From the NCBI RefSeq assembly GCF_013042245.1, contig NZ_JABDQL010000125.1:1-46000 (forward strand): 46,000 nucleotides of DNA, written 5' to 3'. The translations under genes and the position numbers were made by a program. Shown here in pieces: positions 1 through 31,552 of this stretch (the stretch's first letter is position 1; each line of letters opens with the position of its first letter). This DNA comes from Winogradskyella sp. (GTDB lineage Bacteria; Bacteroidota; Bacteroidia; Flavobacteriales; Flavobacteriaceae). The notes beneath the pieces were generated by a model that had not been told where the DNA came from, made no database searches, and worked only from the letters and a program-made list of their open reading frames with translations.

Positions 1-1
1 A

Positions 2-115
2 CTTGAGCGGATTAAGAATAATAATCAACGCCTAAAGGAGTTTGCATTATATGCCATTACAGGGCAATCCGCTTGGGAATTATGGAGAACAAGTACTAAT
101 TCAGTCATATATTAG
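2..115 (+). other. C-terminal end of an unidentified ORF at the left edge
   Basis: An open frame runs in from the window edge for 37 codons and stops with TAG at 113-115. The peptide contains RLKEFALYAITGQSAWELW and ends in SVIY. I do not recognise it. Its stop codon overlaps the premature stop of the proline dehydrogenase on the other strand, so it probably belongs to the DNA that truncated that gene, perhaps a transposase tail. It may equally be chance coding. Confidence 0.25.
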
Positions 116-897
116 AATATAGCCTTGTTTTTTAGAGCGCGACCTCGTTCTTTTTCCATGTAGGCACCTCTCACGAGTTTTATACCTATTTTATAATTTT
201 TGGTCTTAGCTCTTTGATGTAATCCCTTTAAATAGGTTAATCTATCCCAGCGATACGCTTGTAGTGTGTTAAAAATGATAACGTCTTCTGTGTTATATTT
301 TTCCATCATTTCTTCAATAAGACTATCTGCCGTATCTTGCATCCAACTTTCTTCTGCGTCAATCAACACGGGAATATTATATGTGTATGCTGTTTTGCAA
401 ACTATATCAAATCGCGTTTTTATAGCTTTCCATTCAACCTTTTCGGCGGCACTTAAAGGTGTGCCTTCTGTAAGTTTTTGATAAATTTTAAATCGTCCAA
501 AACCTGTGGGTTTAAAGACCACAAAAGGAATAGCTTTATCTGTTTTAGCAAACTCTAAAATTTTTAATATTCTCTGAAGTGTATTATCAAACTGTTGCTC
601 TTCTTGTTTACCTTCCACTGAATAGTCTAAAACCGTATACACATTTTTAGTATACATTTTTTCGACAACTTCTTGACAATCATTTTCATTTATGCCTCCA
701 CAAAAATGATCAAAAACGGTAGCGCGAATTAATTTTTCAACAGGCAATTTAATTTTTAAGGCAAAATTAGTTGCTACTGCTCCAATTTTTACTAATGATG
801 CTTTACGTATCATTTTGAACAAAACTAATGCTCTGATAAGTTCCAAATCTGATTTCAGAGCCAACGCCACTTCTGTATTATCAAATAATTTTTTCAC
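112..897 (-). pseudogene. Proline dehydrogenase, C-terminally truncated
   Basis: FAD-dependent proline dehydrogenases oxidise L-proline to pyrroline-5-carboxylate and feed electrons to quinones. The product is family-like up to the barrel strand KLVRGAY (about residues 240-246), then ends after only 261 residues with a non-family tail (RALKNKAIF). Bacteroidota homologues are usually about 390 residues. The lost third should hold the arginine pair that binds the substrate carboxylate and part of the FAD site, so the fragment is probably inactive. The start is GTG at 897, overlapping the permease stop as GTGA, which indicates translational coupling and an operonic role. A related imino or N-alkyl amino acid substrate is possible given the neighbours. 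Confidence 0.8.
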
Positions 898-2177
898 TTA
901 CTTTGTTTTTTTATTCGGCTTAGAAAAGTATATAAAGCACCTGAAACAATTAAAGATTGTACCGCAGGAAAACCCATTGGGAACAGGTATTGTGTAATAT
1001 ATCCCACTAAAAGTCCTACGGCAATACTTATGGTTGCTAACCAATTCCATGATTTAATGGTAGTAACTTCATTTTTATCGACAAAAAAGTAATGTGCCAT
1101 GATGACTCCAGCTATAACTGGAACTATTAATGCAATGGAATATAAAAAGTTTACGAATTGATCCATAATGCCTAGCAAAGCCAAAATGATACCAACAATA
1201 GCAAAGACGAGTGTCATTATTTTTCGGTTTTTGTTATCATGTAGACTAAACATGTTACACAACACCAAACCACCTGTGTAATTACTAACGAGTTGACTGG
1301 TCCAAGTCGCTACCCAAAGGACAACAAAGCCCCAAGCAGGAAAACCTAATTCTTGCATTACTTGTACAATGTCTGAATTACCGGTTCCAATAGACATAAT
1401 TCCACCAACTATAAACAGCGGAAAGCCTACGATAATAATTCCTAATGGAATTAATATATTATCTCTCCATGTTGGCTTTGCAAATCTTGTATAATCTGGT
1501 GCAATTAACCATTGCGCAACATTAATACTAATCACTAAATTAATGGCTTCTATAAAAGACATAGAACCTTCAGGATTCCAAGCACTAATTTTTTCCCAAC
1601 CCATGTTATTTATGGATAAGTAGAGCGCAACTGTTACGAGCAGTAATCCTGCAGGAATAGCCACATAATCTACCCATTTAATAGAGGCATAGCCTAATAT
1701 GGAAGGAATTGCAAAAAGAATACCAATACCAGCGGTACTCAATACATAAAGAAAAAAATTGTCAACTTTATTAATGCCAACCAAAGCACTAAAGGCGTCT
1801 GTAGCCACAGATGTTTGTATCGCCCACCATCCTAGTGTTAAAGCTAAAATTACAATACCTACAATAATTCGTGACTGTTCTTTTCCAAAACTTAAAGCCG
1901 CTAAAGCGGATGATGTTAGGCTAGTTTTTGCACCAATATAGCCTTGGATGGCATTTCCAATCCACTGAAAAAACACCAACGCAATCACTAAAACTCCAAT
2001 GATTTCTAGTAAGCTAAAATTGCCTATCAAAATACCGCCGATTAATAATACTGGGATGCAAAATTCTAATCCACCAAAAATAAAGGCTGGCACATACCAA
2101 GGTTGTCTTTCGTTTAAAGGAATAGATTCTGAAGCAGAATTTTTAGTTTCTTTGGAATTTTTTGATGTATTTTCCAT
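894..2177 (-). CDS. NCS1-family permease (cytosine/hydantoin/allantoin type)
   Basis: This is a 427-residue polytopic inner-membrane protein with about 12 hydrophobic segments, the usual size for the nucleobase:cation symporter-1 family. The cytoplasmic N-terminus (about 25 residues) leads into RQPWYVPA and a glycine-rich first helix, typical of CodB-like members. NCS1 proteins carry cytosine, purines, hydantoins or allantoin with Na+ or H+. Its place directly after hyuA, hyuB and a cupin gene suggests that it brings the cyclic amide substrate from periplasm to cytoplasm. The actual substrate cannot be read from the sequence. The 3' end overlaps the next gene by 4 bp. Confidence 0.88.
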   Translation of the reverse strand: MENTSKNSKETKNSASESIPLNERQPWYVPAFIFGGLEFCIPVLLIGGILIGNFSLLEIIGVLVIALVFFQWIGNAIQGYIGAKTSLTSSALAALSFGKEQSRIIVGIVILALTLGWWAIQTSVATDAFSALVGINKVDNFFLYVLSTAGIGILFAIPSILGYASIKWVDYVAIPAGLLLVTVALYLSINNMGWEKISAWNPEGSMSFIEAINLVISINVAQWLIAPDYTRFAKPTWRDNILIPLGIIIVGFPLFIVGGIMSIGTGNSDIVQVMQELGFPAWGFVVLWVATWTSQLVSNYTGGLVLCNMFSLHDNKNRKIMTLVFAIVGIILALLGIMDQFVNFLYSIALIVPVIAGVIMAHYFFVDKNEVTTIKSWNWLATISIAVGLLVGYITQYLFPMGFPAVQSLIVSGALYTFLSRIKKQSK

Positions 2178-2214
2178 GATTTTAAAATGTAGTATCTAGA
2201 TGTTAGTTACTGTT

Positions 2215-2523
2215 TTATATTTCTTTGAATAGAAAAAATAATATTTTGCTATCCTTCAAAGTTTCGGTTTTTCGGATTTCGTCTTTATTCAAATAAATTA
2301 AATCGCCTTGGTTCATTATTTTTTCATTTCCATCTTTTGTATATACCTTTAGTTTGCCAGAAACTAAATAGCTTATTTCATGCGCATATAGTGCTTTAAA
2401 TGGAAGTACATGACCTTTTTTTAATACCACTGAACCGCAATCTATCACAACACCATCTTCTTGTTTTTGAATGATATATTTTAGATACTCTTTTTCGGGA
2501 TAGGTTAAGGGTGTAACTTCCAT
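2215..2523 (-). CDS. Small cupin-domain protein
   Basis: This 102-residue protein consists of little more than one cupin beta-barrel: PFKALYAHEISYLVSGKLKV, then GDLIYLNKDEI, fit the two conserved cupin motifs. The first motif has a single His and Glu, so metal binding is uncertain. Single cupins in catabolic operons often act as isomerases, ligand sensors or stabilising accessory proteins. It lies between hyuB (22 bp away) and the permease (37 bp away), in the same orientation, so it is almost certainly co-transcribed with them. The function is not identified. Confidence 0.75.
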   Translation of the reverse strand: MEVTPLTYPEKEYLKYIIQKQEDGVVIDCGSVVLKKGHVLPFKALYAHEISYLVSGKLKVYTKDGNEKIMNQGDLIYLNKDEIRKTETLKDSKILFFLFKEI

Positions 2524-2545
2524 ATGATTTCTATGTAATTAGTCT

Positions 2546-4216
2546 TTAGTAGGTGGGATAATTTTCTAAGGCTTGTTGCTTTGTGATATAACCATTTTTT
2601 ATATCCTTTTGAATTTTTAATAAAGGCCTATTTTTAGGGTTTCCATATCCACCACCTGTAGCGGTGACCAACTTTACACGATCGCCTTTATGTACCTTTA
2701 CATTGGTTACCACATTATAATTTTCTTCGGTACCGTCTGTTCGTATAACGGTAAAATAATTATAGCTCCCTTCTTTTCCTTCTTTAAGACCCCAAGTTGG
2801 GATGGAATAGCCTAAGAATGCACCTGTTAAAAAAGCTTCTTCAGATAGTATTTTGAACGTAAGATATTGTCCATTACCACCTTGAAACTCACCATAACCA
2901 CCACCTTCATTATGAAAAGCATATTCTTCTACGATAACGCCATATTTTCGTTCTCTGGTTTCCGCAGGAATGTTGTAGGATTCTCCATGTGCATATGAGA
3001 ATTGTCCTCGATTTCCGTCATGAAAGGCACAGGCTCCCCAACCACCAGAAAGTGGCTCAGCTTGCACATAGAATTCGTTGGTCACAGGATGAATACCCGA
3101 AATATACGTAACACACACCGATCTAAAATGACCAGCTGGTAATTTATCTGGCACAATTGGGCCTAATGTTTTTAGTAGTAAATCTATCGCTGCTAAAAAC
3201 ACTTCATAATACACAGATATAGGTGCTGGGGATTGCGCGCTTACGACTGTCTTTTCTGGACAAATTAATTTTACATGTTTAAAAGAACCATTATTTGCAG
3301 GTAGAGTAGGAGTTGTAATGGATTTAAAGGCTGCTCTTACTGCGGTTTCTAATCCTGTTCTAGACAGATTTAAAGGCCCTTTTAATTGTTCGTGTGAGCC
3401 TGTGAAATCACAGACCATATTTTCGTTTGAAATAGTAATTTTTAATTTCAACGGAAATGGTCCATTACCAAAACCGTCGTTTTCAATCCAACCAGTATTT
3501 TCATAGGTTCCGTTTGGAATTTTCTGAAGTTCTTTTAAGCTAATGCGTTCGCCATAATCCATAAATTCTATAGCAGCTTGTTTGTAAGCATCTAAGCCAT
3601 ATTTTTCAATAAGTTTTAAAATGCGTTCTGCACCAACATCATTGGCAGCAATACCCGAATATAAATCTCCTAAAGTACTTTTAGGTAGTCTTACATTAGC
3701 TTCTATCATTTTGATAACCGCTTTATTTAGACTACCATTTTCTTTTATTTTAATAAAAGGAAAATGCAGTCCTTCCTGAAATATTTCAGTAGAAATTGTA
3801 GATACAGACCCTGGATTTGTACCACCTATATCTGTCCAGTGTGATTTATTTACTGTAAAAGCGACACGTTCTCCGTTATAAAACACTGGCGTAATAATGG
3901 CAATGTCAGATAAATGTGTGCCACCACCAACATAGGGTGTATTTGCGATGATTACGTCTCCCTCCTTTAAAGGGTTATTTTCGTTAAATTTTTCTAAAGT
4001 TTCTTCAACAACAAGACTCATAGCTGCCAAAAAGGTAATAACGCCATTGCCTTGTGCGAGTAATTGTCCTCTACCGTCAGTAATGCCAACTGCATAATCT
4101 AATGCTTCATAGATAATTGGGCTCATGCTGGTGCGCTGGATGGTTTCGAACATGGCTTCACCAATAGAAATTAATGAATCCTGAATAATATCTGATGTAA
4201 ATTTATCTAAGCTCAT
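2546..4216 (-). CDS. hyuB: Hydantoinase B/oxoprolinase family subunit (HyuB)
   Basis: At 556 residues this is a full-length HyuB-type subunit. It shows the family's GGTHLSDI motif near residue 100 and a glycine-rich C-terminal region (GGGYGEFQGG, then TGGGYGNP). With HyuA it forms an ATP-dependent amidohydrolase that opens cyclic amides: 5-oxoproline to glutamate, N-methylhydantoin to N-carbamoylsarcosine, or lactams. HyuB supplies the hydrolytic half of the reaction. It starts 2 bp after the hyuA stop, so the subunits are translationally linked. The family is certain; the substrate is not. Confidence 0.93.
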   Translation of the reverse strand: MSLDKFTSDIIQDSLISIGEAMFETIQRTSMSPIIYEALDYAVGITDGRGQLLAQGNGVITFLAAMSLVVEETLEKFNENNPLKEGDVIIANTPYVGGGTHLSDIAIITPVFYNGERVAFTVNKSHWTDIGGTNPGSVSTISTEIFQEGLHFPFIKIKENGSLNKAVIKMIEANVRLPKSTLGDLYSGIAANDVGAERILKLIEKYGLDAYKQAAIEFMDYGERISLKELQKIPNGTYENTGWIENDGFGNGPFPLKLKITISNENMVCDFTGSHEQLKGPLNLSRTGLETAVRAAFKSITTPTLPANNGSFKHVKLICPEKTVVSAQSPAPISVYYEVFLAAIDLLLKTLGPIVPDKLPAGHFRSVCVTYISGIHPVTNEFYVQAEPLSGGWGACAFHDGNRGQFSYAHGESYNIPAETRERKYGVIVEEYAFHNEGGGYGEFQGGNGQYLTFKILSEEAFLTGAFLGYSIPTWGLKEGKEGSYNYFTVIRTDGTEENYNVVTNVKVHKGDRVKLVTATGGGYGNPKNRPLLKIQKDIKNGYITKQQALENYPTY

Positions 4217-4218
4217 AT

Positions 4219-6279
4219 TTAATTTATTTTACTAATGATGATATTTGCGTAGTCGTCAATTCTAAATTGATGGTTTGGCGGTACAACGGTTGATGTAGAT
4301 TGTTCGACTATAATTGCTGGTCCTGCGATGTTCATACCTGGGTCTAATTTATCTCTATCGAAAAAACGACTTTGATATATACCAGATACATCAAAATCTA
4401 CATTTTCAGTAGTAATTAAAGCGTCATCAACGGTATAGCCTTTTGCTTCAACTTTCCCAATTACGGGCTTGTTCACGATCACTTCTGCTACAAGGTGATA
4501 GTTTACAATTTCAATTTTTGTATCTACAAGGCTAAAGGCATATCGTTTTTTATGAAGTTGATGAAAATCGAGTTCTATTTCATCCATTTTCAGATCATCT
4601 AGATCAGATAATTTTAATTTAACCGAATGCTCTTGCCCATTATAACGCAGGTCTAAATAGTATTCAAATTCTATATCTTCTTTTTGGTAGGCGTCGCGTT
4701 CGTAAGCCATTATAGCTTCATTTTTCATGTCCTGAAACACGATTTTTAAGTCTGCAAACTTATCTTCGTTTAAGTCCATGACATCGGTGCGGATGTAGTC
4801 TCTTCGTAAATCAGACATCAGCATTCCAAAAGCAGAAAACACACCTGCATTTAATGGTATTATGATTTCTGGCATTTGCAATTCTTCGCCTAAATAGGCG
4901 CCATGCATTGGTCCACCACCACCAATGACCACTAAAGAGAAATCTCTTGGGTCATAACCTTTGTTTACGGATACACTTTTTAAAGCGTTGATCATATTAG
5001 AATTTGCAACCCTAATCACACCTCGTGCAACTTCCTCCATCGTCATGTCTAATTCTTCACAGAGAGGTTGAGCGGCATTTTTTAAACTATCAAAATCTGG
5101 TTTTAATTCGCCTCCTAAAAAATAATCTTTATGAATACGATTGCATACCACATTGGCATCGGTCGTCGTAAAATTAATACCTCCTTTACCATAAGAGGAT
5201 GGACCTGGATTTGCAGCAGCACTTTTAGGACCTACACGCATTTTTCCTCCATCATCCAGCCAAGCAATACTTCCGCCACCATTACCAATTTCTACAATAT
5301 CAATGACAGGAGTGAGAATTGGAAACCCCGCTTGAGTTTTTGTTTTTTCAATGTTATATGTGGTTACTATTTTTGGAATACCGTTTTCAATGAGTGAACA
5401 TTTTGCAGTCGTCCCACCGATATCGAGTACCAATAAGTTTTCTTTACCAATAGTTCTACCCAAAACAACGGCTCCTAACATACCACTTGCTGGTCCTGAT
5501 TCTATTAAGGTAATTGGGTTGGCTTTTACATCTTCTACTGTGGTAATACCGCCATTAGATTGCATAATGTATAAGTTATTTTTATAACCTAATTTTTGCA
5601 AATGGTGGGTGAGATTGTTTAAATATTTTGTTGCGATAGGTTTGACATATGCCGATAAAACCGTGGAGCTTGTGCGCTCATATTCTCGCCATTCTCGTGT
5701 AACCTCATGTGAGGTTATGATTTCAAATTGAGGATGGTTTTTACGAATATAAGAGGCTAATTGTTTCTCGTGAACTGGATTTTTATAACCGTGTAAAAAA
5801 CAAATAGCAATAGCTTCTACACCTTCTTTTATAAAGGTAGTAATGTGTTTGTCAACCGAAGTTTCATCTAATGGTATAATAACTTCACCCAAATAATTAA
5901 TACGTTCTTTTACTTCTTGTCGTAAATAGCGTTCTACAAAGGGTTCTTCTTTTTTGAAGTTGAAGTTATACAGGTCAGGACGCGTGCCTCTTGCAATTTC
6001 TAATACATCTCTAAATCCTTCGGTTGTAATTAACGCAGTTTTAGAACCTTTACGTTCTGTTATAGCATTAATGACCACAGTTGTGCCATGAGCGAAAAAA
6101 TCTATGGTATTTAGATCTAAGCCAATTTTTTCTATCGTGTTTAGAATACCTTTTTCAAATTCACCTGGCGTTGTACTAGACTTAGAAACCTCTACCTTTT
6201 TTACTTCCTTAGTTTTTTTATCGTAATCAAAGAAGACAAGGTCTGTAAAGGTTCCTCCAATATCTGTTGCGACTCTCAT
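4219..6279 (-). CDS. hyuA: Hydantoinase A/oxoprolinase family subunit (HyuA)
   Basis: At 686 residues this is a full-length HyuA-type subunit of the ASKHA (actin-like ATPase) fold. RVATDIGGTFTDLV at the N-terminus and LVLDIGGTTAKCSL near residue 280 are the two phosphate-binding motifs. VIGGGGPMHGAYLGEEL near residue 460 is the adenosine motif. The subunit phosphorylates the cyclic amide carbonyl before HyuB hydrolyses it. The gene follows the TonB receptor by 94 bp and hyuB starts 2 bp downstream. With the receptor, permease and ProDH it suggests a dedicated uptake-and-ring-opening pathway, but the substrate class is inferred. Confidence 0.94.
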   Translation of the reverse strand: MRVATDIGGTFTDLVFFDYDKKTKEVKKVEVSKSSTTPGEFEKGILNTIEKIGLDLNTIDFFAHGTTVVINAITERKGSKTALITTEGFRDVLEIARGTRPDLYNFNFKKEEPFVERYLRQEVKERINYLGEVIIPLDETSVDKHITTFIKEGVEAIAICFLHGYKNPVHEKQLASYIRKNHPQFEIITSHEVTREWREYERTSSTVLSAYVKPIATKYLNNLTHHLQKLGYKNNLYIMQSNGGITTVEDVKANPITLIESGPASGMLGAVVLGRTIGKENLLVLDIGGTTAKCSLIENGIPKIVTTYNIEKTKTQAGFPILTPVIDIVEIGNGGGSIAWLDDGGKMRVGPKSAAANPGPSSYGKGGINFTTTDANVVCNRIHKDYFLGGELKPDFDSLKNAAQPLCEELDMTMEEVARGVIRVANSNMINALKSVSVNKGYDPRDFSLVVIGGGGPMHGAYLGEELQMPEIIIPLNAGVFSAFGMLMSDLRRDYIRTDVMDLNEDKFADLKIVFQDMKNEAIMAYERDAYQKEDIEFEYYLDLRYNGQEHSVKLKLSDLDDLKMDEIELDFHQLHKKRYAFSLVDTKIEIVNYHLVAEVIVNKPVIGKVEAKGYTVDDALITTENVDFDVSGIYQSRFFDRDKLDPGMNIAGPAIIVEQSTSTVVPPNHQFRIDDYANIIISKIN

Positions 6280-6373
6280 AGTATTTTTTTTATTTAAATT
6301 GATTATACAAGCAGCCTCCCTAACTTACTATTTGGTAAGAAAAGAACAAATTAGAAGACTGCTTAAAATGTAT

Positions 6374-8776
6374 TTAGAAGTTATACGATAAGTCGATACC
6401 TACTGTAGTTGGCGTGTTCGGGAATCTTAAGTTATTAAAGCCAAACTCTGCTGTTGGGAAAAACTCTGTATTGAATTGGGTGTCAAAGATATTGTTTGCC
6501 CAAACGGTAACCCCAAATTTATTCAGCTTTAGGTTAACTCTTGCATTTACTAAAGTATAAGGGTCTTGTTTGTATTCCTCTAATGGATCCCAATATTGTG
6601 TACCTCTACTATCTACATTGACATTAAATCCTATGGTAGAACGCTCTGCTAATTCAAAATTGGCATTGGCACCAATCTGAAATGTACTTTCTATGGTAAA
6701 AGGAGAGGTGTTACCACTAACATCAACTTCTTCATTGGTTTCATAATCAAAGGCAGCCGCATTGGTCAATCTGTTGTATGTTCCTTTTTTAATTTCTCCA
6801 TCATTAAAACCAATGCTGGCAAAGAAATCTAGGTTATTAGTTGCTTTAAATTTTATTTCAGATTCGAACCCAACAATTTCAGATTCCTCAAAATTATAAA
6901 TACCCAATACTGCAGGCGTTACCGGAATAAAGGTGTATTGCTGTTGGTTTTCAAAATCAATACGGTAAAAAGCATTGTTAAATATTATTCTATTGTTTAA
7001 GAAACTTGTCTTTAAACCAATTTCGTAGTTATTTGTAAATTCTGGTTCATAAGTTCTACCGAATTTTACGGTTTCATCCGAATTAAATCCGCCACTTCTA
7101 TAGCCGCGACCATAGTTAGCATAAGCTAGCACATTATCCGTAAATTGATACGCTAATGAAAACTTAGGCTGCCATACCGTAATGTCGTTTTCAATACTGT
7201 TGTCTGAGATTCTAGAATCATTAGTGAGTTTATCATAATCAACACGCACACCTGCCGAAATGGTAAACTTATCTGTAACCTTATAGTCTACAAAACCAAA
7301 ACCAGCTAAAGTTTGTATGGTATTATCATCGTCATTACCTACCAACGGATCCGTGCTATAGTCTGCATTTTCTGCAGATGCATCTGTAAACCCTCCTTGG
7401 TAATAGGTGTTATTTAAAAATGTTGATGTATTTAAATAGCGTTTGCTATTTTGAAATAATGTACCAAAGGTATAGTTAAGTTTTGTGTCTTCGGATGAAT
7501 TTGAAGTTACCCTAAATTCCTGGCTAAAGGTATCAGAATCTGATTGTTGAGAAACCTTACTAAAGGCATACTGCGAATAATCATTTTCACCAATATAATA
7601 GCGTCTTGTTGCATTAAAAGAGGTCACAGACTGAAATTTTGCTCTCTTAAGCGACCCTTCGATTTTAAGACTACTTAAAGAGTTAGATAATTCTGAATCT
7701 CCTAAAATATCTCCAAAAGGCTCACTAGAGTAATCATCATCAGCAAGAACAGGAATACTTGGGTTAAAAATATCTGTTTTCGTCACATAATAGTTTCCAC
7801 CAGCATCAATTTTAAAGTTATCTTGTACAAAGGTTGCAGACCATCTTGGATTAAATCTGTATTTTAATTTGGCTCGAATATTAACTTCATCCGAAAAATC
7901 TACGGTCTGACCTAAAAAGGTGTTGTTAATTAAACCATCAAAAGTGCTGTATCTACCATTTATACTATAGTAGAATTTATTCTTAACAAAAGCACCAGAA
8001 GAAGAGATGCCCGCTCCGAATAAACCGCCATTACCTGCATTAAGCATTACTTTGGTTTTATTTTTATTGGTAGGGTCTTTTGTTATGATATTTACGGCGC
8101 CAGCGATTGCATTTTTACCATACAACGTACCTTGTGGACCTTTAACAAATTCTAATAATTCAATATCATATAAAGACATATTCATGGCACTAGCATCTGG
8201 TAAAGTCATACCATCAATAACAACTGCAACTGGAGATTCTGCATTTCTAATTTGAGAAATTCCACGTACGGTTAAAAAATTAACTCCTGGTTGTTGTGCT
8301 TCTGTAAAGGTTACGTTAGATATTTGAGCTGTAAAAGACTGTATATTATCAATGCCACTAGCCTCAATTGTAGCTGCATTTACGGCCACTGTTGTTTCGG
8401 GTAGTGTCTGTATGGCTTGTGTTCTATTCCTGGCCTTACTTGCTACAGAGGCAAAACCCTCTATGGATACGGCGTCTAACTGGCTGGCTTCCGCTTTTAG
8501 ACTGACGCTAAGATTGTCGTTCGTTATTTGGACAGTCTGAGTCTCGAACCCCAAATAAGAGATTTCCAATTCTTTAACATCTTCGTTAACAGTGATAATA
8601 AACTCACCGTTAAAATCTGAAGTTACCCCATTGGTAGAATTCCCTTTTTCAACGATAGTTGCACCAGGTAAGGGATTGCCTGTGTCATCATAGACAGTGC
8701 CTCCAATATCCTTAGTTGTTTGTGCCGATAAGAAGAATGTTGTGAGACATAAAATGCTTAAGAGTAGCTTTTTCAT
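6374..8776 (-). CDS. TonB-dependent outer-membrane receptor
   Basis: This 800-residue protein has a signal peptide (about 1-19, cleaved after FFLSAQ) and a CarboxypepD_reg-like domain (about 23-105, with the family's GNPLPGATI and YLGFETQ). The plug domain follows (about 120-230; QGTLYGKNAIAGAVNI) and then a 22-strand barrel ending in the terminal-aromatic YNF. Such receptors import substrates energised by TonB-ExbBD. No SusD partner lies beside it, which argues against a glycan utilisation locus and fits a small nitrogenous substrate. It is first in the minus-strand operon and carries the only long upstream region (8777-8922), so the operon promoter should lie there. Confidence 0.95.
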   Translation of the reverse strand: MKKLLLSILCLTTFFLSAQTTKDIGGTVYDDTGNPLPGATIVEKGNSTNGVTSDFNGEFIITVNEDVKELEISYLGFETQTVQITNDNLSVSLKAEASQLDAVSIEGFASVASKARNRTQAIQTLPETTVAVNAATIEASGIDNIQSFTAQISNVTFTEAQQPGVNFLTVRGISQIRNAESPVAVVIDGMTLPDASAMNMSLYDIELLEFVKGPQGTLYGKNAIAGAVNIITKDPTNKNKTKVMLNAGNGGLFGAGISSSGAFVKNKFYYSINGRYSTFDGLINNTFLGQTVDFSDEVNIRAKLKYRFNPRWSATFVQDNFKIDAGGNYYVTKTDIFNPSIPVLADDDYSSEPFGDILGDSELSNSLSSLKIEGSLKRAKFQSVTSFNATRRYYIGENDYSQYAFSKVSQQSDSDTFSQEFRVTSNSSEDTKLNYTFGTLFQNSKRYLNTSTFLNNTYYQGGFTDASAENADYSTDPLVGNDDDNTIQTLAGFGFVDYKVTDKFTISAGVRVDYDKLTNDSRISDNSIENDITVWQPKFSLAYQFTDNVLAYANYGRGYRSGGFNSDETVKFGRTYEPEFTNNYEIGLKTSFLNNRIIFNNAFYRIDFENQQQYTFIPVTPAVLGIYNFEESEIVGFESEIKFKATNNLDFFASIGFNDGEIKKGTYNRLTNAAAFDYETNEEVDVSGNTSPFTIESTFQIGANANFELAERSTIGFNVNVDSRGTQYWDPLEEYKQDPYTLVNARVNLKLNKFGVTVWANNIFDTQFNTEFFPTAEFGFNNLRFPNTPTTVGIDLSYNF

Positions 8777-8826
8777 TTTGAATTAATTTTTCATTAGATA
8801 GACAATTTTACAAACTAAATTATATT

Positions 8827-8886
8827 AATTCCATAATTCCTGTTTATTTAATATTATTAATTAATTATAGGAATTTAAATGGAATT
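8827..8886. promoter_or_regulatory. Candidate operator dyad between divergent genes
   Basis: Within the 146-bp AT-rich gap between the receptor operon and the divergent 436-residue gene, AATTCCATAATTCCT (8827-8841) faces AGGAATTTAAATGGAATT (8869-8886). The arms are inverted copies, each with two TTCC/GGAA half-sites 8 to 10 bp apart. A further GGAATT occurs inside the next gene near 8935. The position suits a regulator controlling both directions. The DNA is so AT-rich that chance symmetry cannot be excluded. Confidence 0.4.
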
Positions 8887-8922
8887 AGAGTAATTTTAAA
8901 AAATATAACAACTTATTAAATA

Positions 8923-10233
8923 ATGAACACTAGAGGAATTAAAGTATCAAATGGTCTTATTTTAGCACTACATAAAGAGCTTTTAAGTGTTTTTTCTAAA
9001 CATTATGGTTTAAAAATAAAAACCTTAACCGTATTCCAATTATACGGTTTTGGGGATTATGATGAGCTTCGTCCAAGTTTAAAAAACTACATCATGGAAA
9101 TCACGCATCAGCTTATCAATGGTAAATATATTTATAATAAAATCAGGGAAGTTGATAAAGGTAATAGCAAATATGTAAGATTACGAAGAGATTATTTATC
9201 CCTTTTAATTTTATCTGCTGGTTATGAAAATTATACACAATATATAAACAAATCGCCTTATATAAGTTCTCAAATTAGAGAAGAAGAAGGGAGTAATTTT
9301 GATGAAACCTCTAATAACATTGATGCGTTGTACTATGTAGGGTATTATGTAGAGGACAGACAGTATTATATAAAGTCTAAGCTTACCATTAACAAAATGA
9401 AAACGGCATCTTGGGAAATTTTATATTGGGAGAATAATACCACGCCTACCTATTACACTTATTTTGGAAAATGTGTGCCCACAGGAGAAAGCGCACTCTC
9501 CTTTTATTTTAGTAAAGAAAATTCGAGTTTAAATAAAGAATGTTTTGTCAATTTGTTTTACGGTAATAATATGCAGTCAAAACCTGTGTTATTAGGCGCT
9601 TATTGTGGTTTTAACCGAAGCAATAGTCCGGTCATAGGCAAATTAGTTTTTGAGCAGGCGCAAGACAAGGAAGACCAGGATTTAAAAGTAAAGTCTAGGA
9701 ACATTAACCCTATATTTCATCATTATTTGTATTCCCAACGTATGGAGATCGATAATATTCTGCCTCGAAAAGATTCAGATCTTACCGTATCTCTAAACAG
9801 GCTAGAGATTATTAATTTTTTAATTGGAGATTATCTTGGTTTTTATTTAGACCGAAACAACTATTTAATCCCTATCTCTTTTGGTGTTATAAATAACCTT
9901 GGCGAAATAAAATTTAAAGTAAACAATATAAATTTTAAGGGGATTGGGAGAATTAGCAGAACCGAAAATTACCTTATATCAGAGTTCAGCGAAAAAACAC
10001 CTTCCTATTCTCAGTTTTCATTGCAAGTACAGCCTTTAGAACGTGATTTGTTTTTGGGGCAAATGCTTGTTTATACAGGGGCAAACGTGCTCAATGGAAA
10101 AGTACTACTTTGGAAACAGAACAAAAATCTAAAAGCATTTATAGATACCAATAAAGAGTTTTATCTAAATAAAACTGATTTAGAGGCGGATATAAATGTA
10201 AAAATCACCGAATATTTAGAAAATAAAATATGA
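8923..10233 (+). CDS. Unknown 436-residue protein, divergent to the hyuAB operon
   Basis: I do not recognise a family. The protein is cytoplasmic by appearance: no signal peptide and no membrane segment. Residues 1-110 look helical and basic. Residues about 120-436 alternate hydrophobic and polar positions with many Tyr, Phe and Asn, as in beta-rich ligand-binding domains. The helical N-terminus could be a DNA-binding or interaction module, but I cannot assign an HTH motif. A divergent position over a shared intergenic dyad is the usual place for a pathway regulator, so a ligand-responsive regulator is a guess. It is followed by about 245 bp without a gene, then an IS200-type element. Confidence 0.7.
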   Translation: MNTRGIKVSNGLILALHKELLSVFSKHYGLKIKTLTVFQLYGFGDYDELRPSLKNYIMEITHQLINGKYIYNKIREVDKGNSKYVRLRRDYLSLLILSAGYENYTQYINKSPYISSQIREEEGSNFDETSNNIDALYYVGYYVEDRQYYIKSKLTINKMKTASWEILYWENNTTPTYYTYFGKCVPTGESALSFYFSKENSSLNKECFVNLFYGNNMQSKPVLLGAYCGFNRSNSPVIGKLVFEQAQDKEDQDLKVKSRNINPIFHHYLYSQRMEIDNILPRKDSDLTVSLNRLEIINFLIGDYLGFYLDRNNYLIPISFGVINNLGEIKFKVNNINFKGIGRISRTENYLISEFSEKTPSYSQFSLQVQPLERDLFLGQMLVYTGANVLNGKVLLWKQNKNLKAFIDTNKEFYLNKTDLEADINVKITEYLENKI

Positions 10234-10478
10234 AACCCATAATGGGCATTTGGCAAACAATGGCTAATACCCATTGGAATAATTAAAGCATTGATAGCCT
10301 AAATATTACAAAAATGTAAATAGATAAAAAACTATTAGATCATACATATTTATCTAAAATAATGACGGATATTAAGAACCCAATCAATATCAAAATGTTC
10401 AATATAAGTTAGACGTTAAACCGATCTTATAAAACTTTAATTCATTGCCTTTTATTGGTCCCAAAAATAGTTAAAACT

Positions 10479-10494
10479 ATGCACTTTAGTGCAT
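10479..10494. repeat. Left-end hairpin of the IS200-type element
   Basis: A perfect 6-bp stem, ATGCAC/GTGCAT, closes a TTTA loop. It lies 36 bp before the transposase start, where IS200-type elements keep their left-end recognition hairpin. Confidence 0.65.
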
Positions 10495-10517
10495 CCGCTT
10501 TAGCTTCTAAAAATACC

Positions 10518-10525
10518 TACCTTTG
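10518..10525 (+). promoter_or_regulatory. Bacteroidota -7 box of the IS200-type transposase
   Basis: TACCTTTG matches the TAnnTTTG consensus exactly and lies 5 bp before the ATG, which implies a very short or absent 5' leader. No clear -33 TTTG is visible. Confidence 0.4.
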
Positions 10526-10530
10526 TTTTT

Positions 10531-10955
10531 ATGTCACATCAAAGGGTAAATGGTCATGCAGTTTCTAGATTAACTGTTCATATAGTTTGGAGTACAAAGT
10601 ACAGGTATTCTGTTCTCAAAGGAGATGTCCAAAAAAAGTGTCGTGAATTATTAATCCAAATCTGTGATGCAGAAGGAGTAAATATTCTAAAGGGTGTTGT
10701 TAGTAAAGATCATATTCATATAGAATATCTCCCTTCACAAGATATAAGTACATTGGTAAAAAAATTTAAAGGTAGAACTTCACGACGTTTACAGCAGGAA
10801 TTTCCAGTGTTGTATAAACGTTATTGGGTATGCATTTTTGGGCAATAGGTTTTGGCTTTTGGAGTACAGGAAACATTACTGATCAAATGGTTAATGAGTA
10901 TTTAGAACATCACAGGAAATCTGAAAATGATAGTGAAAATTTCATACTTGAGTAA
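10531..10955 (+). pseudogene. tnpA: IS200-type TnpA transposase, frameshifted
   Basis: The Y1 HUH transposase cuts single-stranded DNA at the element's hairpin ends. The HUH pair is visible in KDHIHIEYLP (His-x-His near residue 70). The frame breaks after KRYW near 10828: one base is missing, so the first frame ends at 10848. The family C-terminus resumes in the next frame (MHFWAIGFGFWSTGN), including the region of the catalytic tyrosine (MVNEYLEHH), and stops at 10953-10955. Without that tyrosine the first-frame product of 105 residues should be inactive. Programmed frameshifting is not known for this family, so I treat it as a mutation. Confidence 0.85.
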
Positions 10956-10965
10956 TCACGTACTG

Positions 10966-10979
10966 CTGACTTTAGTCAG
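10966..10979. repeat. Right-end hairpin of the IS200-type element
   Basis: CTGAC-TTTA-GTCAG has the same loop as the left-end hairpin and lies 11 bp after the transposase stop. A second stem-loop of similar shape (CTATGG..CCATAG, with a bulged T, 10988-11008) overlaps the end of the neighbouring pseudogene; whether it belongs to the element is unclear. Confidence 0.6.
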
Positions 10980-10987
10980 TAACAAAC

Positions 10988-11906
10988 CTATGGTACTTTA
11001 GTCCATAGTGGTTTATTTTCAGTCGTTGTAAATGTTTCATTCTTCCATACACATTCTTCGTAATTGGTATAATCAAGAGCAATTTCTCCGTAATAAAATA
11101 CCAACTGTTGTAAAACTTCTGCTTTCCTATCTTCATTAGATTTATCGTAAAAGTTCGAATTCAAAAAAACACTTAAAGCAAATCGATCTACATTAGTATT
11201 TGAATGGTCGTAAAATTCTTGAATTGGTCCTGAGCCACTATAAATTATTCCTGAGGTTCTATGTTTTTTCCAAAAAGGTGCTTTGTAGGTCAACCCAATT
11301 CTAAGAGAATCATGCATCCATGTATGCGTATTTAATACCAATGCAGAAATATCCTCAGGTAAATCCGGCTAAATTTTGATAGTGTTAGAAAGTAAAAGTG
11401 ATGGTAATGTTGAAACTACGTATTTTGAGTTATAGCTAAAATCGTTGGATTTAGTAATAATGTCATTATCATTGAGTAGAATTTTACTGATAATTTGATT
11501 TGTTTTAATAAAATTTCCATCTATTCGCTCTAATAGTGCTTCAATTACAGCAGAAGTACCGCTAGAAATCAGATAGTTTTAGTGTCGTTTTTGGGCAATT
11601 GTACCAATTTTGCTGATTTTAACCATTGGGATGATAAATTACAGTGTTACCTTAGTGTTGCTCAAACACAGAAATATTAAGTTCCTTCAATAGTTCTAAA
11701 GCTGAAGTTTGTTGGTCAATAAGCTAGGTTGCACCTAATTCTATAGGAGCTTGATTTGTATTGGATTTGGTTAATATTCTTACCTCTAAACGTTCTATAG
11801 CTTCGACAACTATAAAATTAATATTCGCTTTTTGAAGAAAATAGGCGAGCGATAAGCCTGTTAATCCACCGCCAAAAATAAGAACATCCGTTTTTAGCTT
11901 ATTTAT
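10988..11906 (-). pseudogene. Flavin amine oxidase-like gene, multiply broken
   Basis: Reading minus-strand frames from just below recG gives KTDVLIFGGGLTGLSLAYFL, a Rossmann FAD-binding motif followed by VVEAIERLE, as at the start of flavin monoamine oxidases and protoporphyrinogen oxidase relatives. Stops then appear after ELGAT, after FEQH and after HPNG, and a frameshift occurs near SDF. The reading resumes with SGTSAVIEALLERID and STLPSLLLS, has another stop after NTIKI, and ends as a clean stretch (11341 down to 10988: NTHTWMHDSLRIGLTYKAPF and onward). The C-terminus is missing where the IS200-type element begins. At least four stops plus truncation make it a dead gene. No ATG survives; ATA at 11904-11906 may be the mutated start. 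Confidence 0.8.
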
Positions 11907-11909
11907 AGG

Positions 11910-14084
11910 TTACGAAATATAATTCCAAATATTCTTATACTTACTCATCTCACGATAGGTGTTTAAAATAGCTTGATGCTGGGGTAAACTAAGTGCGGGG
12001 TCAGTTCCTAATATTTTTTTTGCTTGGTAACGTGCTTCTTGCAGAATGTCCTTGTCTTTTACCACATCTGCAATTCTTAAATTTAATACGCCGCTTTGTT
12101 GCGTTCCCATAATATCTCCAGGACCACGAAGTTTTAAGTCTACCTCGGCAATTTCAAAACCATCAGAAGATCTCACCATAGTTTCTAAGCGTGTTTTACT
12201 ATTTTCTCCCAATTTATGGCTAGTCATTAAAATGCAGTAGCTCTGTTCGGCACCACGGCCAACACGACCTCTTAGCTGATGTAACTGAGACAGGCCAAAG
12301 CGCTCTGCACTTTCAATAACCATTACAGAGGCGTTAGGCACGTTAACTCCAACCTCAATAACCGTAGTGGCAACCATAATTTGAGTTTCACCTTTTACAA
12401 AGCGTTGCATCTCAAACTCTTTATCAGCGGGTTTCATTTTGCCATGAACTATAGAGATTTGATAGTTAGGCTGCGGAAACTCTCTAACAATACTCTCATA
12501 ACCATCCATTAAATCCTTGTAATCCATGTGCTCGCTTTCTTGAATCAATGGATACACAACATAAATTTGTCTGCCTTTAGCGATTTCATCCTTCATAAAC
12601 TTAAAGACTTTCAGGCGATTACTATCATATCGATGTACCGTTTTTATCGCTTTACGACCAGCAGGTAATTCGTCAATAACTGAGATGTCCAAATCTCCAT
12701 AAACAGACATGGCTAAAGTTCGTGGAATAGGGGTAGCAGTCATCACTAAAATATGTGGAGGAACTATCTTTTTAGAACTTGCGTATGAAGCTGAATTTGA
12801 ACTCGAATTCTCATCATCATTTTTTAAAATTTGCACAGAAGTTTTATCCCATAATTTTTTTCGTTGTGCAACTCCAAATCGATGTTGTTCATCTATAATA
12901 GCCAAGCCTAAATTCTGAAATTTAACCTTATCTTCAAGGAGCGCATGAGTGCCTACAAGTATCTGTAAATTGCCATTTTCGAGATTTTCATGGATTTTTT
13001 TTCTTTTTGAAGTTTTAGTTGAGCCTGTTAATAGTGAAATTTTGATATTCAGTGGTTTGCATAATTCTAATAATCCATTATAGTGTTGGACTGACAAAAT
13101 TTCAGTTGGCGCCATTAAGCAGCATTGAAAATCGTTGTCAAGCCCCATGAGCATTGACATAAATGCAACAATGGTTTTTCCAGAACCTACATCGCCTTGA
13201 AGAAGTCGACTCATTTGTGCATTGCTACCCAAATCAGCCCTGATTTCTTTTAGTACACGTTTCTGTGCGTTGGTTAATTCAAAGGGTAAATGGTCTTTAA
13301 AAAAGGTGTTAAAATACGTTCCGACTTTATTAAATTTTAATCCTTTAATTTTTGATTTATGGATAAGGTTTTTGAGAATTAATTGCAACTGTATATAGAA
13401 CAATTCTTCATACTTTAATCGGAATTGTGCGCGTGCTAGTAGCTCTGGAGATTTTGGGAAATGAACGTTTAAAAGTGCTTCAGATTTTGAGAGCAATTTG
13501 AGGTCGTTTATAGTCTCTTTAGGTAGCGTTTCAAAGAAGGCTCCTTTGGTTTCTAAAAAGAGTTGTTGCATTATTTTAGAAACCACTTTATTGGTAATGC
13601 CTTTGTTGGATAGTTTTTCTGTCGAGGGATAAATAGCCTGCATGGCTGAACGTAGATTGCTGTCCTGTTCCGATTGTAATTCAATTTCTGGGTGCGGCAT
13701 ACTGTATCTTCCGTTAAACCAATTAGTACGCCCAAAAATGACGTAAGGCTTACCAATCTTAAGGCTTTCGCGTATCCACTTTTGTCCTCTAAACCATACA
13801 AGTTCCATCATTCCGGTATTGTCTTTAAAATCAGCTACCAGTCTTTTGCCACGTTTTTGAGCGACCTCTCTAAAACCTATGATAGTACCAATAACTTGTA
13901 CTTCGGCATTATTACGATGTAGTTCGTTGATTTTATAATAGCGTGTACGATCAATGTAGCGATTTGGAAATAAGTTGAGTAAATCTTGATAGGTTTTTAT
14001 CCCTAGCTCTGAGCGTAACAAATCTGCACGATTTGGTCCAACACCTTTAAGATAATCGATGGGAGTCTGAAGATTTACACTCAT
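11910..14084 (-). CDS. recG: ATP-dependent DNA helicase RecG
   Basis: RecG reverses stalled replication forks and processes Holliday junctions. The 724-residue product has the N-terminal wedge/OB domain (about 1-200) and the helicase motifs: Walker A GDVGSGKT, the DExH box as IIDEQHRFGV, motif III VMTATPIPRT, and motif VI LRGRVGRG. The C-terminal TRG region follows motif VI. It is about 30 residues longer than the E. coli protein, partly because of a Ser/Asn-rich loop (SSSNSASYASS) before motif III. It is monocistronic in appearance and diverges from the M1 peptidase gene across 78 bp. Confidence 0.97.
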   Translation of the reverse strand: MSVNLQTPIDYLKGVGPNRADLLRSELGIKTYQDLLNLFPNRYIDRTRYYKINELHRNNAEVQVIGTIIGFREVAQKRGKRLVADFKDNTGMMELVWFRGQKWIRESLKIGKPYVIFGRTNWFNGRYSMPHPEIELQSEQDSNLRSAMQAIYPSTEKLSNKGITNKVVSKIMQQLFLETKGAFFETLPKETINDLKLLSKSEALLNVHFPKSPELLARAQFRLKYEELFYIQLQLILKNLIHKSKIKGLKFNKVGTYFNTFFKDHLPFELTNAQKRVLKEIRADLGSNAQMSRLLQGDVGSGKTIVAFMSMLMGLDNDFQCCLMAPTEILSVQHYNGLLELCKPLNIKISLLTGSTKTSKRKKIHENLENGNLQILVGTHALLEDKVKFQNLGLAIIDEQHRFGVAQRKKLWDKTSVQILKNDDENSSSNSASYASSKKIVPPHILVMTATPIPRTLAMSVYGDLDISVIDELPAGRKAIKTVHRYDSNRLKVFKFMKDEIAKGRQIYVVYPLIQESEHMDYKDLMDGYESIVREFPQPNYQISIVHGKMKPADKEFEMQRFVKGETQIMVATTVIEVGVNVPNASVMVIESAERFGLSQLHQLRGRVGRGAEQSYCILMTSHKLGENSKTRLETMVRSSDGFEIAEVDLKLRGPGDIMGTQQSGVLNLRIADVVKDKDILQEARYQAKKILGTDPALSLPQHQAILNTYREMSKYKNIWNYIS

Positions 14085-14162
14085 AAAGCGAATTTAATTC
14101 ATTTCTCTAAAACTCATAAGCTAAAATTTCATTTTGGTCTATTCCTTGTGTAGTTTTACCGT

Positions 14163-16142
14163 ATGAAGAAATGGATTTTTGGTTTTTGCCTATCAATTGC
14201 TGTGTTTTTGAAAGCGCAACAAAATGAATATGTGGATTTTAAGAAGATTGAAGCTAACATAGAGTTTTTGGTTGATTCTTCTAAAGTAAAAGGTAAGTTA
14301 ATTTATCAATTTGAAATTTTAAAGGATATTGATTCTGTATTTATTGATGCTCAGTCTATTTTGTTTTCTGATATTAAGTTAACAGAATTAATGGCGTATA
14401 CTGATGTAGAGTTTGTTAGTGTCAAATACAAGAAAAATAAATCAAAATTGGTAGTTTACAATAATTTCAAGGCTGATAGTAGTTATGAATTAAGGTTAAA
14501 TTACCTGGCAAACCCTCGAAAAGCATTGTATCTTCTCAAAAGAAATGATTATTTAAATATTTGGACCCAAGGTCAAGGCAAGTACACAAGCCACTGGTTG
14601 CCTAGCTTTGATGATATGAATGAAAAGGTGGAGTTTGATTTATCTATTATATTTAATGAAGATTACACAGTTTTAGCCAATGGAAAATTAGATAGTATTT
14701 CAGGTTCCGGAGATTTTAAAAATTGGCACTATAATATGAAGAAGCCCATGTCTAGCTACCTCGTAGCTTTAGCTATTGGTAAATACGATAAGAAAACTGA
14801 AACTTCAAAAAGTGGTATTCCTTTAGAGTATTATTACTATCCTGAAGATTCTCTAAAAGTCGAGCCAACATATCGTTACACCAAACAGATATTCGATTTT
14901 TTAGAAGATGAGATTGAATTTAACTACCCTTGGCAAAATTACAAACAAGTACCAGTGCACGATTTTTTGTATTCTGGTATGGAGAATACGACACTCACGA
15001 TTTTTTCAGATACTTTTGTGGTAGATTCTATAGGTTTTAACGATAGAAATTATGTCAATGTTAACGCACACGAATTAGCACATCAATGGTTTGGCGATTT
15101 GGTTACTGTAACTTCTGGTGTGCATCATTGGTTGCAAGAAGGTTTTGCAACTTATTATGCGTTATTAGCGGAAAAAGAGATTTTTGGTCAAGATTATTTT
15201 GATTTTAAACTCTATAATTCTGCAAAAGATTTAGGTCGTCAAGATGTTTCAGGAAGTGGAACATCACTACTTAACCCTAAATCTAGTAGCTTAACATTTT
15301 ATCAACGTGGCGCATGGGTTTTATATGCTTTACGCCATAAAGTTGGTGATAAAGTATTTAAAAGTGCTGTAAAGAATTATTTAGAAAAACATCAGTTTGC
15401 TAATGTCGAAACATCAGATTTTATCTCTGAAGTTGAAGCAATTTACGGTCAATCGCTTTCTAAATTTGTTGATAATTGGATAGTTGTTAAAGATTTTCCG
15501 TTTAACAATGCTATAGCATTGCTCAAATCACAATCCAATTTCATACAAGAATATATTATGGTGGATTGTGAAGCAAACTCTTCAAAATGTGAAGATTACT
15601 TAACTTATTATCTATCAGATGAAGCTAAAATAAAAGTCATTTCCCAGCGTCCTGATTTAGTATCTAACAAAACCTTTAAGGAAAGTAAAAAAGTGCGTCA
15701 AGCGATTTCGCAATATGTAACTACAATTCCTAAAGAATTAAAAGGAAATTACGAAACACTACTTGATGATGCATCTTATCTAACTATTGAATCGGCCTTG
15801 TATAATTTATGGATTAATTTTCCGACGGCTAGAGCCCGTTACTTGGCCAAAACAAAATCTGTTTATGGGTTTTTAGAAAAAAATGTGAGATTGTTATGGT
15901 TGGTTCTTAATTTGAATACGCCAGAATACCAATCCGATAAAAAAGAAGAAATTCTTAATGAATTAAAAAGCTATACTAATCCTGATAACAATTTTCAATT
16001 ACGTATTAATGCGTTCAATTTCTTAGATTTAATTGGTGCTTGTGATGCAAATTGTAGAGCCAATTTAGAGCAAGCAAAAACACATCATAATTGGCGAATG
16101 GTTAAGTTTGCAAAAGATATGCTTAAAAAACAAGATAAATAA
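14163..16142 (+). CDS. M1-family metallo-aminopeptidase, exported
   Basis: The signal peptide spans about residues 1-18 (FGFCLSIAVFLKAQ). The zinc site is HELAH at 303-307 followed 18 residues later by Glu326, the exact M1 HExxH-x18-E pattern. The substrate-binding GMEN motif (SGMENTTL) lies about 30 residues upstream. At 659 residues it is at the short end for M1 peptidases, with a reduced helical C-terminal domain. It should remove N-terminal residues from peptides in the periplasm or at the cell surface. The stop codon overlaps the next start (TAATG), so it is coupled to the patatin gene. Confidence 0.93.
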   Translation: MKKWIFGFCLSIAVFLKAQQNEYVDFKKIEANIEFLVDSSKVKGKLIYQFEILKDIDSVFIDAQSILFSDIKLTELMAYTDVEFVSVKYKKNKSKLVVYNNFKADSSYELRLNYLANPRKALYLLKRNDYLNIWTQGQGKYTSHWLPSFDDMNEKVEFDLSIIFNEDYTVLANGKLDSISGSGDFKNWHYNMKKPMSSYLVALAIGKYDKKTETSKSGIPLEYYYYPEDSLKVEPTYRYTKQIFDFLEDEIEFNYPWQNYKQVPVHDFLYSGMENTTLTIFSDTFVVDSIGFNDRNYVNVNAHELAHQWFGDLVTVTSGVHHWLQEGFATYYALLAEKEIFGQDYFDFKLYNSAKDLGRQDVSGSGTSLLNPKSSSLTFYQRGAWVLYALRHKVGDKVFKSAVKNYLEKHQFANVETSDFISEVEAIYGQSLSKFVDNWIVVKDFPFNNAIALLKSQSNFIQEYIMVDCEANSSKCEDYLTYYLSDEAKIKVISQRPDLVSNKTFKESKKVRQAISQYVTTIPKELKGNYETLLDDASYLTIESALYNLWINFPTARARYLAKTKSVYGFLEKNVRLLWLVLNLNTPEYQSDKKEEILNELKSYTNPDNNFQLRINAFNFLDLIGACDANCRANLEQAKTHHNWRMVKFAKDMLKKQDK

Positions 16143-17029
16143 TGCGTGCACTGGTCATTTCTGGAGGTGGAAGTAAAGGTGCCTTTGCTGGTGGCGTGGC
16201 ACAATATCTCATGGAACAAGAGAAGCGAGAGTATGATATGTTTTTAGGAACTTCCACAGGTAGTTTACTCGTTCCGCATTTGGCTGTCAACAAAATAGGT
16301 AAGCTTTATGATATTTTTACCAATGTACAACAACATGATATCTTTAGTGTAAGTCCGTTTGTCCAGCGCAAAAAAGGAGATAGAGAATATGTTTCTATAG
16401 ATTTTATTAATTCTTTATGGCAGTTTATTCGTCGCAAACGAACGTTTGGCGAGAGTAAAACGCTTAAGAAAAATATTAAGAAAAATTTTACTCAAAGCGA
16501 ATTCAACAAAATTAAAGAAACCAAGCATGATGTTGTTATTACGGTTGCTAATTTATCTATGAACCGAGTAGAGTATAAGTCTATTAATGACTGTTCGTAT
16601 GAGGAGTTTTGCGATTGGATATGGATTTCTTGTAATTACATTCCGTTTATGTCTTTGGCAGAGCGTAATGGTCACGAATACGCTGATGGTGGTTTGGGTA
16701 GTGTTATTCCTATAAGAGAAGCTATTTTACGTGGTGCAACTGAAGTTGATGCAGTAGTTTTAGAGGCTGAAAATATGGATAGGCAAAAAGTGTTAGGTAA
16801 AAACCCTTTTTCTTTAATGCTTAATCTGTTTGGCCACTTACTAGACCAAAACGAACGAAATGATATTCTCATTGGTAAACTTGCGGCCAAAAATAGAGGT
16901 GTGAAACTTAATATTTATTACACGCCAACAACATTAACCGAAAACTCTCTTATTTTTAGTAAACGGCTAATGGAGAAATGGTGGCAACAAGGTTATGATT
17001 ACGGAGAAAGAAAGCATTCTGTTGTGTAA
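16142..17029 (+). CDS. Patatin-like phospholipase
   Basis: This 295-residue cytoplasmic-type patatin hydrolyses acyl esters with a Ser-Asp dyad. The oxyanion loop is SGGGSKGAFAGG (residues 7-18). The nucleophile elbow GTSTGS (36-41) puts the catalytic Ser at 38. The Asp lies in YADGGLGS (about 180-187). All three elements are intact. The start overlaps the stop of the M1 peptidase by one base, indicating a two-gene operon. No signal peptide is present, so it probably acts on inner-membrane lipids from the cytoplasm. Confidence 0.92.
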   Translation: MRALVISGGGSKGAFAGGVAQYLMEQEKREYDMFLGTSTGSLLVPHLAVNKIGKLYDIFTNVQQHDIFSVSPFVQRKKGDREYVSIDFINSLWQFIRRKRTFGESKTLKKNIKKNFTQSEFNKIKETKHDVVITVANLSMNRVEYKSINDCSYEEFCDWIWISCNYIPFMSLAERNGHEYADGGLGSVIPIREAILRGATEVDAVVLEAENMDRQKVLGKNPFSLMLNLFGHLLDQNERNDILIGKLAAKNRGVKLNIYYTPTTLTENSLIFSKRLMEKWWQQGYDYGERKHSVV

Positions 17030-17103
17030 TGATCAGTAATTATCTTTTGCAAACAAGGTTGAAAGTTAAAAAAGATATGTGTTTTTAATAATCGCTTAAG
17101 CTA

Positions 17104-19433: not shown

Positions 19434-19517
19434 AGTGTTATTGAGGTTTATTGGACATTATATCTCTAAATGCCAGATATGGGCTACTAAGATATTTAAA
19501 AAAACGAAAACCATTAT

Positions 19518-19536
19518 AACCTGAGTTCGATTAATA
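19518..19536. repeat. IS982-type terminal inverted repeat, left
   Basis: A 19-bp perfect inverted match to 20510-20528. It contains the transposase stop codon. Confidence 0.93.
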
Positions 19537-31550: not shown

Positions 31551-31552
31551 AT

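Follow-up and report, generated by a model that had tools for sequence, protein, structure and literature searches.

The stretch of DNA analysed here (the window) comprises 46,000 nucleotides of Winogradskyella sp., contig NZ_JABDQL010000125.1, and begins with six head-to-tail genes on the minus strand. Read from the open reading frames in operon order, these encode a TonB-dependent receptor (6374..8776, 800 aa, with CarbopepD_reg_2 and plug domains); HyuA, the predicted large subunit of an ATP-dependent cyclic-amide hydrolase (4219..6279, 686 aa); HyuB, its predicted metal-dependent partner (2546..4216, 556 aa); a small cupin (2215..2523, 102 aa; Cupin_3 at 27.0 bits, cut-off 23.5); a CodB-like NCS1 permease (894..2177, 427 aa; Transp_cyt_pur at 58 bits, cut-off 23.5); and a proline dehydrogenase (ProDH), of which only the first 257 codons remain (125..897). 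The intergenic gaps are 94, 2, 22 and 37 bp, and the permease and ProDH genes share a 4-bp GTGA overlap; an earlier note on this DNA had described six genes with gaps of 2-94 bp and this overlap, and the coordinates bear it out. All six gene names are backed by Pfam scores above cut-off, which supports, at the level of protein family, the same note's description of an uptake and ring-opening operon. ProDH is interrupted by the end of a multicopy, insertion-sequence-like repeat (1..124). At the other side of the operon, a divergent conserved gene of 436 aa, a proposed dedicated regulator, lies on the plus strand (8923..10233), and the composite operator ATTCC-N6-ATTCC-N29-GGAAT-N3-GGAAT (8828..8885, minus strand) is located between the two divergent genes. 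The divergent gene and operator travel with the block in relatives; the earlier note mentioned neither.

The same block recurs in relatives belonging to several genera, so the gene order is beyond chance. Judged from its sequence, the operon is a real and conserved cyclic-amide set, in which known enzyme families enter a new combination. Our searches of the open-access literature for hydantoinase/ProDH operons (also with TonB/Bacteroid and with Polaribacter) found no description of it.

Gene content and descent of the block

Window-type HyuB genes were found in 17 relatives, namely 16 records and one single-contig genome (L037), with L012 (G371) taken as the same record as L024; two distant clusters (L043 and L044), with HyuB at 28-30% identity and other genes, were excluded from all counts. 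HyuA and HyuB are present in all 17 relatives, the divergent gene, the TonB receptor and the cupin in 16 each, and the permease in 15. ProDH is the last gene, always in the same orientation, in 12 of the 17; 11 copies are whole (390-396 aa) and one is cut by a contig end. The earlier note had proposed looking among relatives for a conserved block with an intact ProDH, and this is what most of them carry; loss of ProDH from the majority, which that note would have counted against itself, was not seen. Operon ProDH is absent from L024, L027, L031, L032 and L033, whose genomes have one ProDH each, except that of L032, where none was found.

Further genes are inserted in some relatives. A quinone-oxidoreductase-like reductase lies between TonB and HyuA in 11/17, and a membrane-protein-like gene without family between the cupin and the permease in 6/17; in L024 this gene follows the cupin with no permease after it. 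A pyrroline-5-carboxylate dehydrogenase (P5CDH) is found within the operon in two relatives (L021 and L037), in both as a second P5CDH of the genome. The full order in L037 is the divergent gene, then TonB, P5CDH, reductase, HyuA, HyuB, cupin, membrane protein, NCS1 permease and ProDH. The window operon has no P5CDH, reductase or membrane-protein gene, and a reductase remnant sought in its 94-bp TonB-HyuA gap was not found; such remnants occur in L024 (22 residues) and in the genome of L029 (residues 249-334). The only P5CDH detected in the genome of L033 sits directly downstream of the cupin. L029 starts inside HyuB; for this locus, as for L024 and L033, the upstream part was located on another contig, and in the genome of L024 the TonB gene is split over two contigs. 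We also note two peculiarities: (i) L027 of Polaribacter glomeratus, where ProDH is absent and the operon TonB gene lies in two frames (4186-6592), is another eroding copy; and (ii) a hydrophobic protein of about 290 aa (L035, 12119-12976, and relatives) is encoded in 6/17 operons; Pfam scans of four copies gave nothing over cut-off, and an NCBIfam scan of one copy gave no match.

Five sister clusters (L038-L042) have HyuB at 59-63% identity to the window type. All five have HyuA, HyuB, cupin and NCS1 permease genes, and four have TonB, the contig of L041 ending inside HyuA. The divergent gene is present in the three whose contigs reach it (L038, L039 and L040), at 25-27% identity to that of the window. 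Four of the five add a gene of the Asp/Glu/hydantoin racemase family and one of the S-Me-THD family, and three add a second HyuA (these extra genes were grouped by BLAST, with family tests made on the L038 copies). L040 also has the quinone-oxidoreductase-like reductase, and a further gene there comes near the pyrroline-2-carboxylate reductase family, scoring 271.5 bits where the cut-off is 322.

The distribution of the block is patchy. It was found in 9/397 genomes of the family at E 1e-60 (two of them distant, at 29-30%, and three of window type, at 90% or more), in 1/68 genomes of the genus, this being the window's own, in 4/395 of the order, one of them distant, and, with a profile at 1e-100, in 2/395 of the phylum; the window's own genome is included in these counts and the draws overlap. 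The HyuAB tree pairs Subsaximicrobium with Gillisia (100/99) and places Ekhidna, which comes from a metagenome bin and has a long branch, inside the flavobacterial group, and the RecG tree pairs Subsaximicrobium with the window (97/96). The patchiness and the tree conflicts together make the case for lateral movement. HyuB identity across genera is 84-92%, against 57-80% for RecG. A reading of this difference as recent lateral spread is weakened by the heavy synonymous change (dS from 0.8 to beyond estimate in the three pairs measured), so that HyuAB is simply slow. Identities of HyuA and HyuB also correlate with that of RecG (Spearman 0.69 and 0.55), which counts for partly vertical descent, so that old transfers followed by losses fit the correlation and the heavy synonymous change better than recent spread does.

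Hydrolase, permease and control region

The Pfam domains Hydant_A_N, Hydantoinase_A and Hydant_A_C in HyuA, and Hydantoinase_B in HyuB (513.6 bits), exceed their gathering scores over nearly the full length of the proteins, placing the pair in the hydantoinase/oxoprolinase family. Aligned to 6yra_B, residues D40, H101, D104 and H126 of HyuB match the metal ligands of CapB (Asp41, His99, Asp102 and His124; PMC8453981), so the Asp-His-Asp-His site is present. The pair thus shares both its two-subunit architecture and its metal ligands with the caprolactamase CapAB of Pseudomonas jessenii; it differs from it in score, with 503.5 and 225.6 bits against NCBIfam equivalog cut-offs of 1000 each, and in the pocket, where Tyr136 of CapB is replaced by V138 and the vicinal Cys410-Cys411 disulfide by Y408-A409. 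The best solved sequence match is instead N-methylhydantoinase (PDB 7hk5 group; 448.7 bits for HyuA and 240 bits for HyuB), which is a single fused chain of 1288 residues and has, in the alignment, a Gln at the position of H126 in the window HyuB. By family, HyuAB is expected to open a cyclic amide at the expense of ATP. That HyuA/HyuB pairs are often misnamed is a point made in the caprolactamase study (PMC8453981).

The permease belongs to the same NCS1 family as the cytosine permease CodB and the hydantoin permease Mhp1. In an alignment to CodB, all 16 operon permeases retain Trp108 and have Thr, Asn and Gln in place of Gln105, Phe204 and Asn280; Thr278 of the Na2 site is also retained. Gln105 and Phe204 hold cytosine in CodB (PMC9379551), and in all 16 two of the three cytosine-contacting side chains (Gln105, Trp108 and Phe204) are missing. 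Comparison with the sister permeases allows a shift of the Phe204 position by one, to an Ile, and the residue is non-aromatic in both registers. These changes argue against cytosine as the substrate and give mild support to a non-planar compound. Four of the five sister permeases (L038-L041) differ from the window type at 4/9 positions, and that of L042 agrees at 9/9.

The divergent gene and TonB are separated by 146 bases, and an alignment of this region from 13 loci has 31 invariant columns; 13 of these, and all six of the invariant G or C columns, lie in three ATTCC or GGAAT half-sites. In the window, ATTCC-N6-ATTCC occurs once, against 0.12 expected, and GGAAT-N-AT-GGAAT twice, against 0.02 expected, its second copy lying at 27652 inside mnmE. 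The four-half-site operator is exact in the window and nine relatives. With 24-34 middle bases allowed, a match was found at the operon in 16/18 carrier genomes, always with N29; the two carriers without a match are Ekhidna, which has a degenerate site, and the genome of L032, whose locus has neither divergent gene nor TonB. A three-half-site search for a wider regulon gave five further, differently spaced matches in five genomes, against a total of one match for the reversed control. Since the N29 match stands at the operon in 16/18 and the other matches are few and differently spaced, the control site appears to be dedicated to this operon. No Pfam or NCBIfam family matched the 436-aa protein encoded by the divergent gene; its position and the operator suggest a regulator, which may itself bind the ATTCC/GGAAT half-sites. 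The conserved divergent gene and the exact operator suggest that the block is a self-regulated, patchily spread cassette.

Operon ProDH and its interruption in the window

The operon ProDHs, 13/13 when the window fragment is included, form a single clade (100/98) apart from the housekeeping copies, within which the window adjoins Polaribacter YR2-5-5-J (L036) at 100/99; 30 of 32 rows were kept for this tree, one duplicate and the long-branched Ekhidna row being left out. Only columns 12 and 273 are diagnostic for the operon or housekeeping group, and the ordinary proline-dehydrogenase motifs are kept, so there is no sign of a new substrate. The gene looks constrained, with dN/dS of 0.10-0.15 in three pairwise comparisons (window, L034 and L036). 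A separate ProDH is encoded elsewhere in all 12 carrier relatives and in the window genome (contig C19), and the window fragment is 58% identical to the C19 copy; family and motifs are those of flavobacterial housekeeping ProDH, whereas the operon copies form their own clade and sit in a cyclic-amide operon. The operon ProDH may be read as an additional L-proline dehydrogenase, co-expressed with its neighbours, and a proline-yielding substrate would then be the most economical link between it and the operon. One relative, Polaribacter IC066 (L062, G402:C147), has two adjacent ProDH genes in addition to the operon copy.

In the window, the ProDH frame (897-112) has 261 codons, the last of which, with the stop, are supplied by the repeat. 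It scores 110.1 bits, over the Pro_dh cut-off, and covers only 2-162 of the 278 profile positions. The proline dehydrogenase that the earlier note placed at the end of the operon is therefore correct in its family and as last gene; here it is a fragment that has lost its C-terminal half. The lost part corresponds to the stretch that bears KYLPFG and LIRRAEEN in the L036 copy and aligns with PutA; the Tyr of the former and the Arg-Arg of the latter we take to be substrate-binding residues of ProDH. When the assembly was searched with 137 residues from the C-terminal part of an operon ProDH of a relative, only the C19 copy was hit.

A search with the 124 bases of the repeat end found it at 21 or more places in the same assembly, this one counted and with 40 of 51 candidates scored, and in none of 20 other genomes of the genus. 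Sixteen of the 21 copies were placed against the length of their contig: 15 are no more than 4 bases from its end, and one is 33 bases in. In all eight copies read, including the window's, the switch from flank to repeat occurs at an identical start, GGCTATATTC, which reads away from ProDH in the window; two of the eight flanks (L007 and L008) are alike. Occurrence of the same end at many sites in one genome is as defined for an insertion sequence, and ProDH here is cut by what looks like a jumping gene. A 37-aa plus-strand frame inside the roughly 124 assembled bases of the repeat matched no Pfam model. The 257 ProDH codons that are kept have no internal stop, so the insertion looks recent. 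The window carries another insertion element at 19516-20530, with perfect 21-bp inverted ends and a 297-aa transposase (DDE_Tnp_1_3); its ends differ from the start of the 1-124 repeat.

The truncation might instead be a product of the assembly or confined to a minority of cells: the contig would have run into a repeat, and the gene would be whole in most cells. The repeat does stand at a contig end, and its assembled length could equal an assembler overlap; the genome is also fragmented (154 contigs, 86% complete), so that a whole ProDH might have gone unassembled or be polymorphic. We nevertheless hold this to be quite improbable: with the alike pair allowed for, the exact same repeat start follows differing flanks at the eight ends read, as expected for real insertions, and the missing half of the gene was absent from the assembly search.

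Proposed function and alternatives

Starting from the observed gene order, family membership, conservation, operator and truncation in the assembly, we propose, with a probability of about one half, that the block is a self-regulated operon by which a small cyclic amide, probably non-aromatic, is taken up and degraded with proline as a product. The TonB receptor would take up the small cyclic amide, and with the NCS1 permease would carry it over both membranes; HyuA would activate it with ATP, and metal-bound HyuB would hydrolyse the ring amide. In the more complete relatives the products would be processed by the reductase, ProDH and sometimes P5CDH, any L-proline derived from the substrate going to glutamate. 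Control would most likely lie with the product of the divergent gene, as a regulator that senses the compound and attaches to the ATTCC/GGAAT operator. In the window genome, ProDH would have been inactivated by the repeat insertion, and released proline would therefore depend on the ProDH of C19; the window would thus show an insertion removing one step of such a pathway from a genome that retains another ProDH. We infer each of these transport and catalytic steps, as well as the link from ring opening to proline and the role of the regulator.

A more specific version of this proposal seems rather unlikely to us as a whole: a mobile, self-regulated cassette of marine Bacteroidota that couples uptake to ATP-dependent HyuAB opening of a proline-containing cyclic amide (e.g. 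a proline diketopiperazine), with a regulator from an undescribed family and its own four-half-site operator. If the ring does contain proline, the cassette would provide a genetic route for the breakdown of cyclic dipeptides, a stable class of natural compounds whose degradation is called little known in one study (PMC3852281). Few HyuA/HyuB substrates are known. Because this pair travels with importers, a divergent gene, an operator and mostly ProDH, its substrate could be sought by asking which cyclic amide switches on the promoter.

Several observations weigh against a proline-yielding, self-regulated operon. The window has no enzyme that clearly converts a ring-opened product to proline, and a second P5CDH accompanies the operon in just 2/17 relatives. 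The AlphaFold model of the 436-aa protein is weak (pLDDT 66, pTM 0.39) and had no convincing fold match. ProDH is lacking in 5/17 close relatives and in all four sister clusters that extend past NCS1 (the stretch of L040 ends one gene later, and L042, which ends at NCS1, falls outside this count), so ProDH would be an accessory of one branch. These absences favour a live alternative, in which the cyclic amide is unrelated to proline, and one branch picked up ProDH (and P5CDH) as a passenger at the operon's 3' end and kept it for some unrelated benefit; that every operon-ProDH carrier has another ProDH, and that the window copy is broken, would also fit. Against a passenger speak the constant orientation of ProDH and its place as last gene in all 12 carriers, its single clade, its low dN/dS in the three pairs measured and the linkage of P5CDH to the operon at two distinct positions; we regard this alternative as possible, with the odds against it.

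The racemase-like and thiohydantoin-desulfurase-like genes of the sister clusters point to hydantoin-type substrates there, which likewise weighs against proline as the product. By extension, HyuAB may be of the hydantoinase or 5-oxoproline type, its product going directly to glutamate, with ProDH and P5CDH present because the same food (e.g. peptide debris) also gives proline. N-methylhydantoinase being the best solved relative would agree with this, as would the L039 cluster (1-17410), which lies beside genes reading, by eye, as HutH, HutU and HutI and thereby suggests a histidine-derived hydantoin as the substrate there. We judge it unlikely for the window type, whose blocks have no racemase or S-Me-THD genes between TonB and ProDH, whose HyuB is just 59-63% identical to the sister type, and whose permease differs from those of L038-L041 at the four positions noted above, though not from that of L042. 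Far less probable is a lactam pathway resembling N-methylpyrrolidone breakdown, the parallel drawn in the earlier note, in which ProDH would be the FAD oxidase of a ring-opened N-alkyl amino acid. The nmp genes of the N-methylpyrrolidone pathway encode a HyuAB-like hydrolase and then an FAD enzyme; the gene order here is alike, and HyuAB does belong to the lactamase family. The FAD enzyme of the operon, however, looks by its canonical motifs, with only two columns diagnostic against housekeeping copies, like a plain proline dehydrogenase, and it is accompanied by P5CDH in two relatives, that of L021 scoring 763.7 bits, over the TIGR01236 cut-off. The parallel is accordingly not supported.

Two further parts of the window have a mobile character. 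A short IS200-like transposase frame of 105 aa (10531-10848) adjoins the divergent gene, and the segment after mnmE (28213-34128) resembles an integrated mobile element, encoding a helix-turn-helix protein, a tyrosine integrase, an AAA/DnaB-like protein and a DUF6371 protein.

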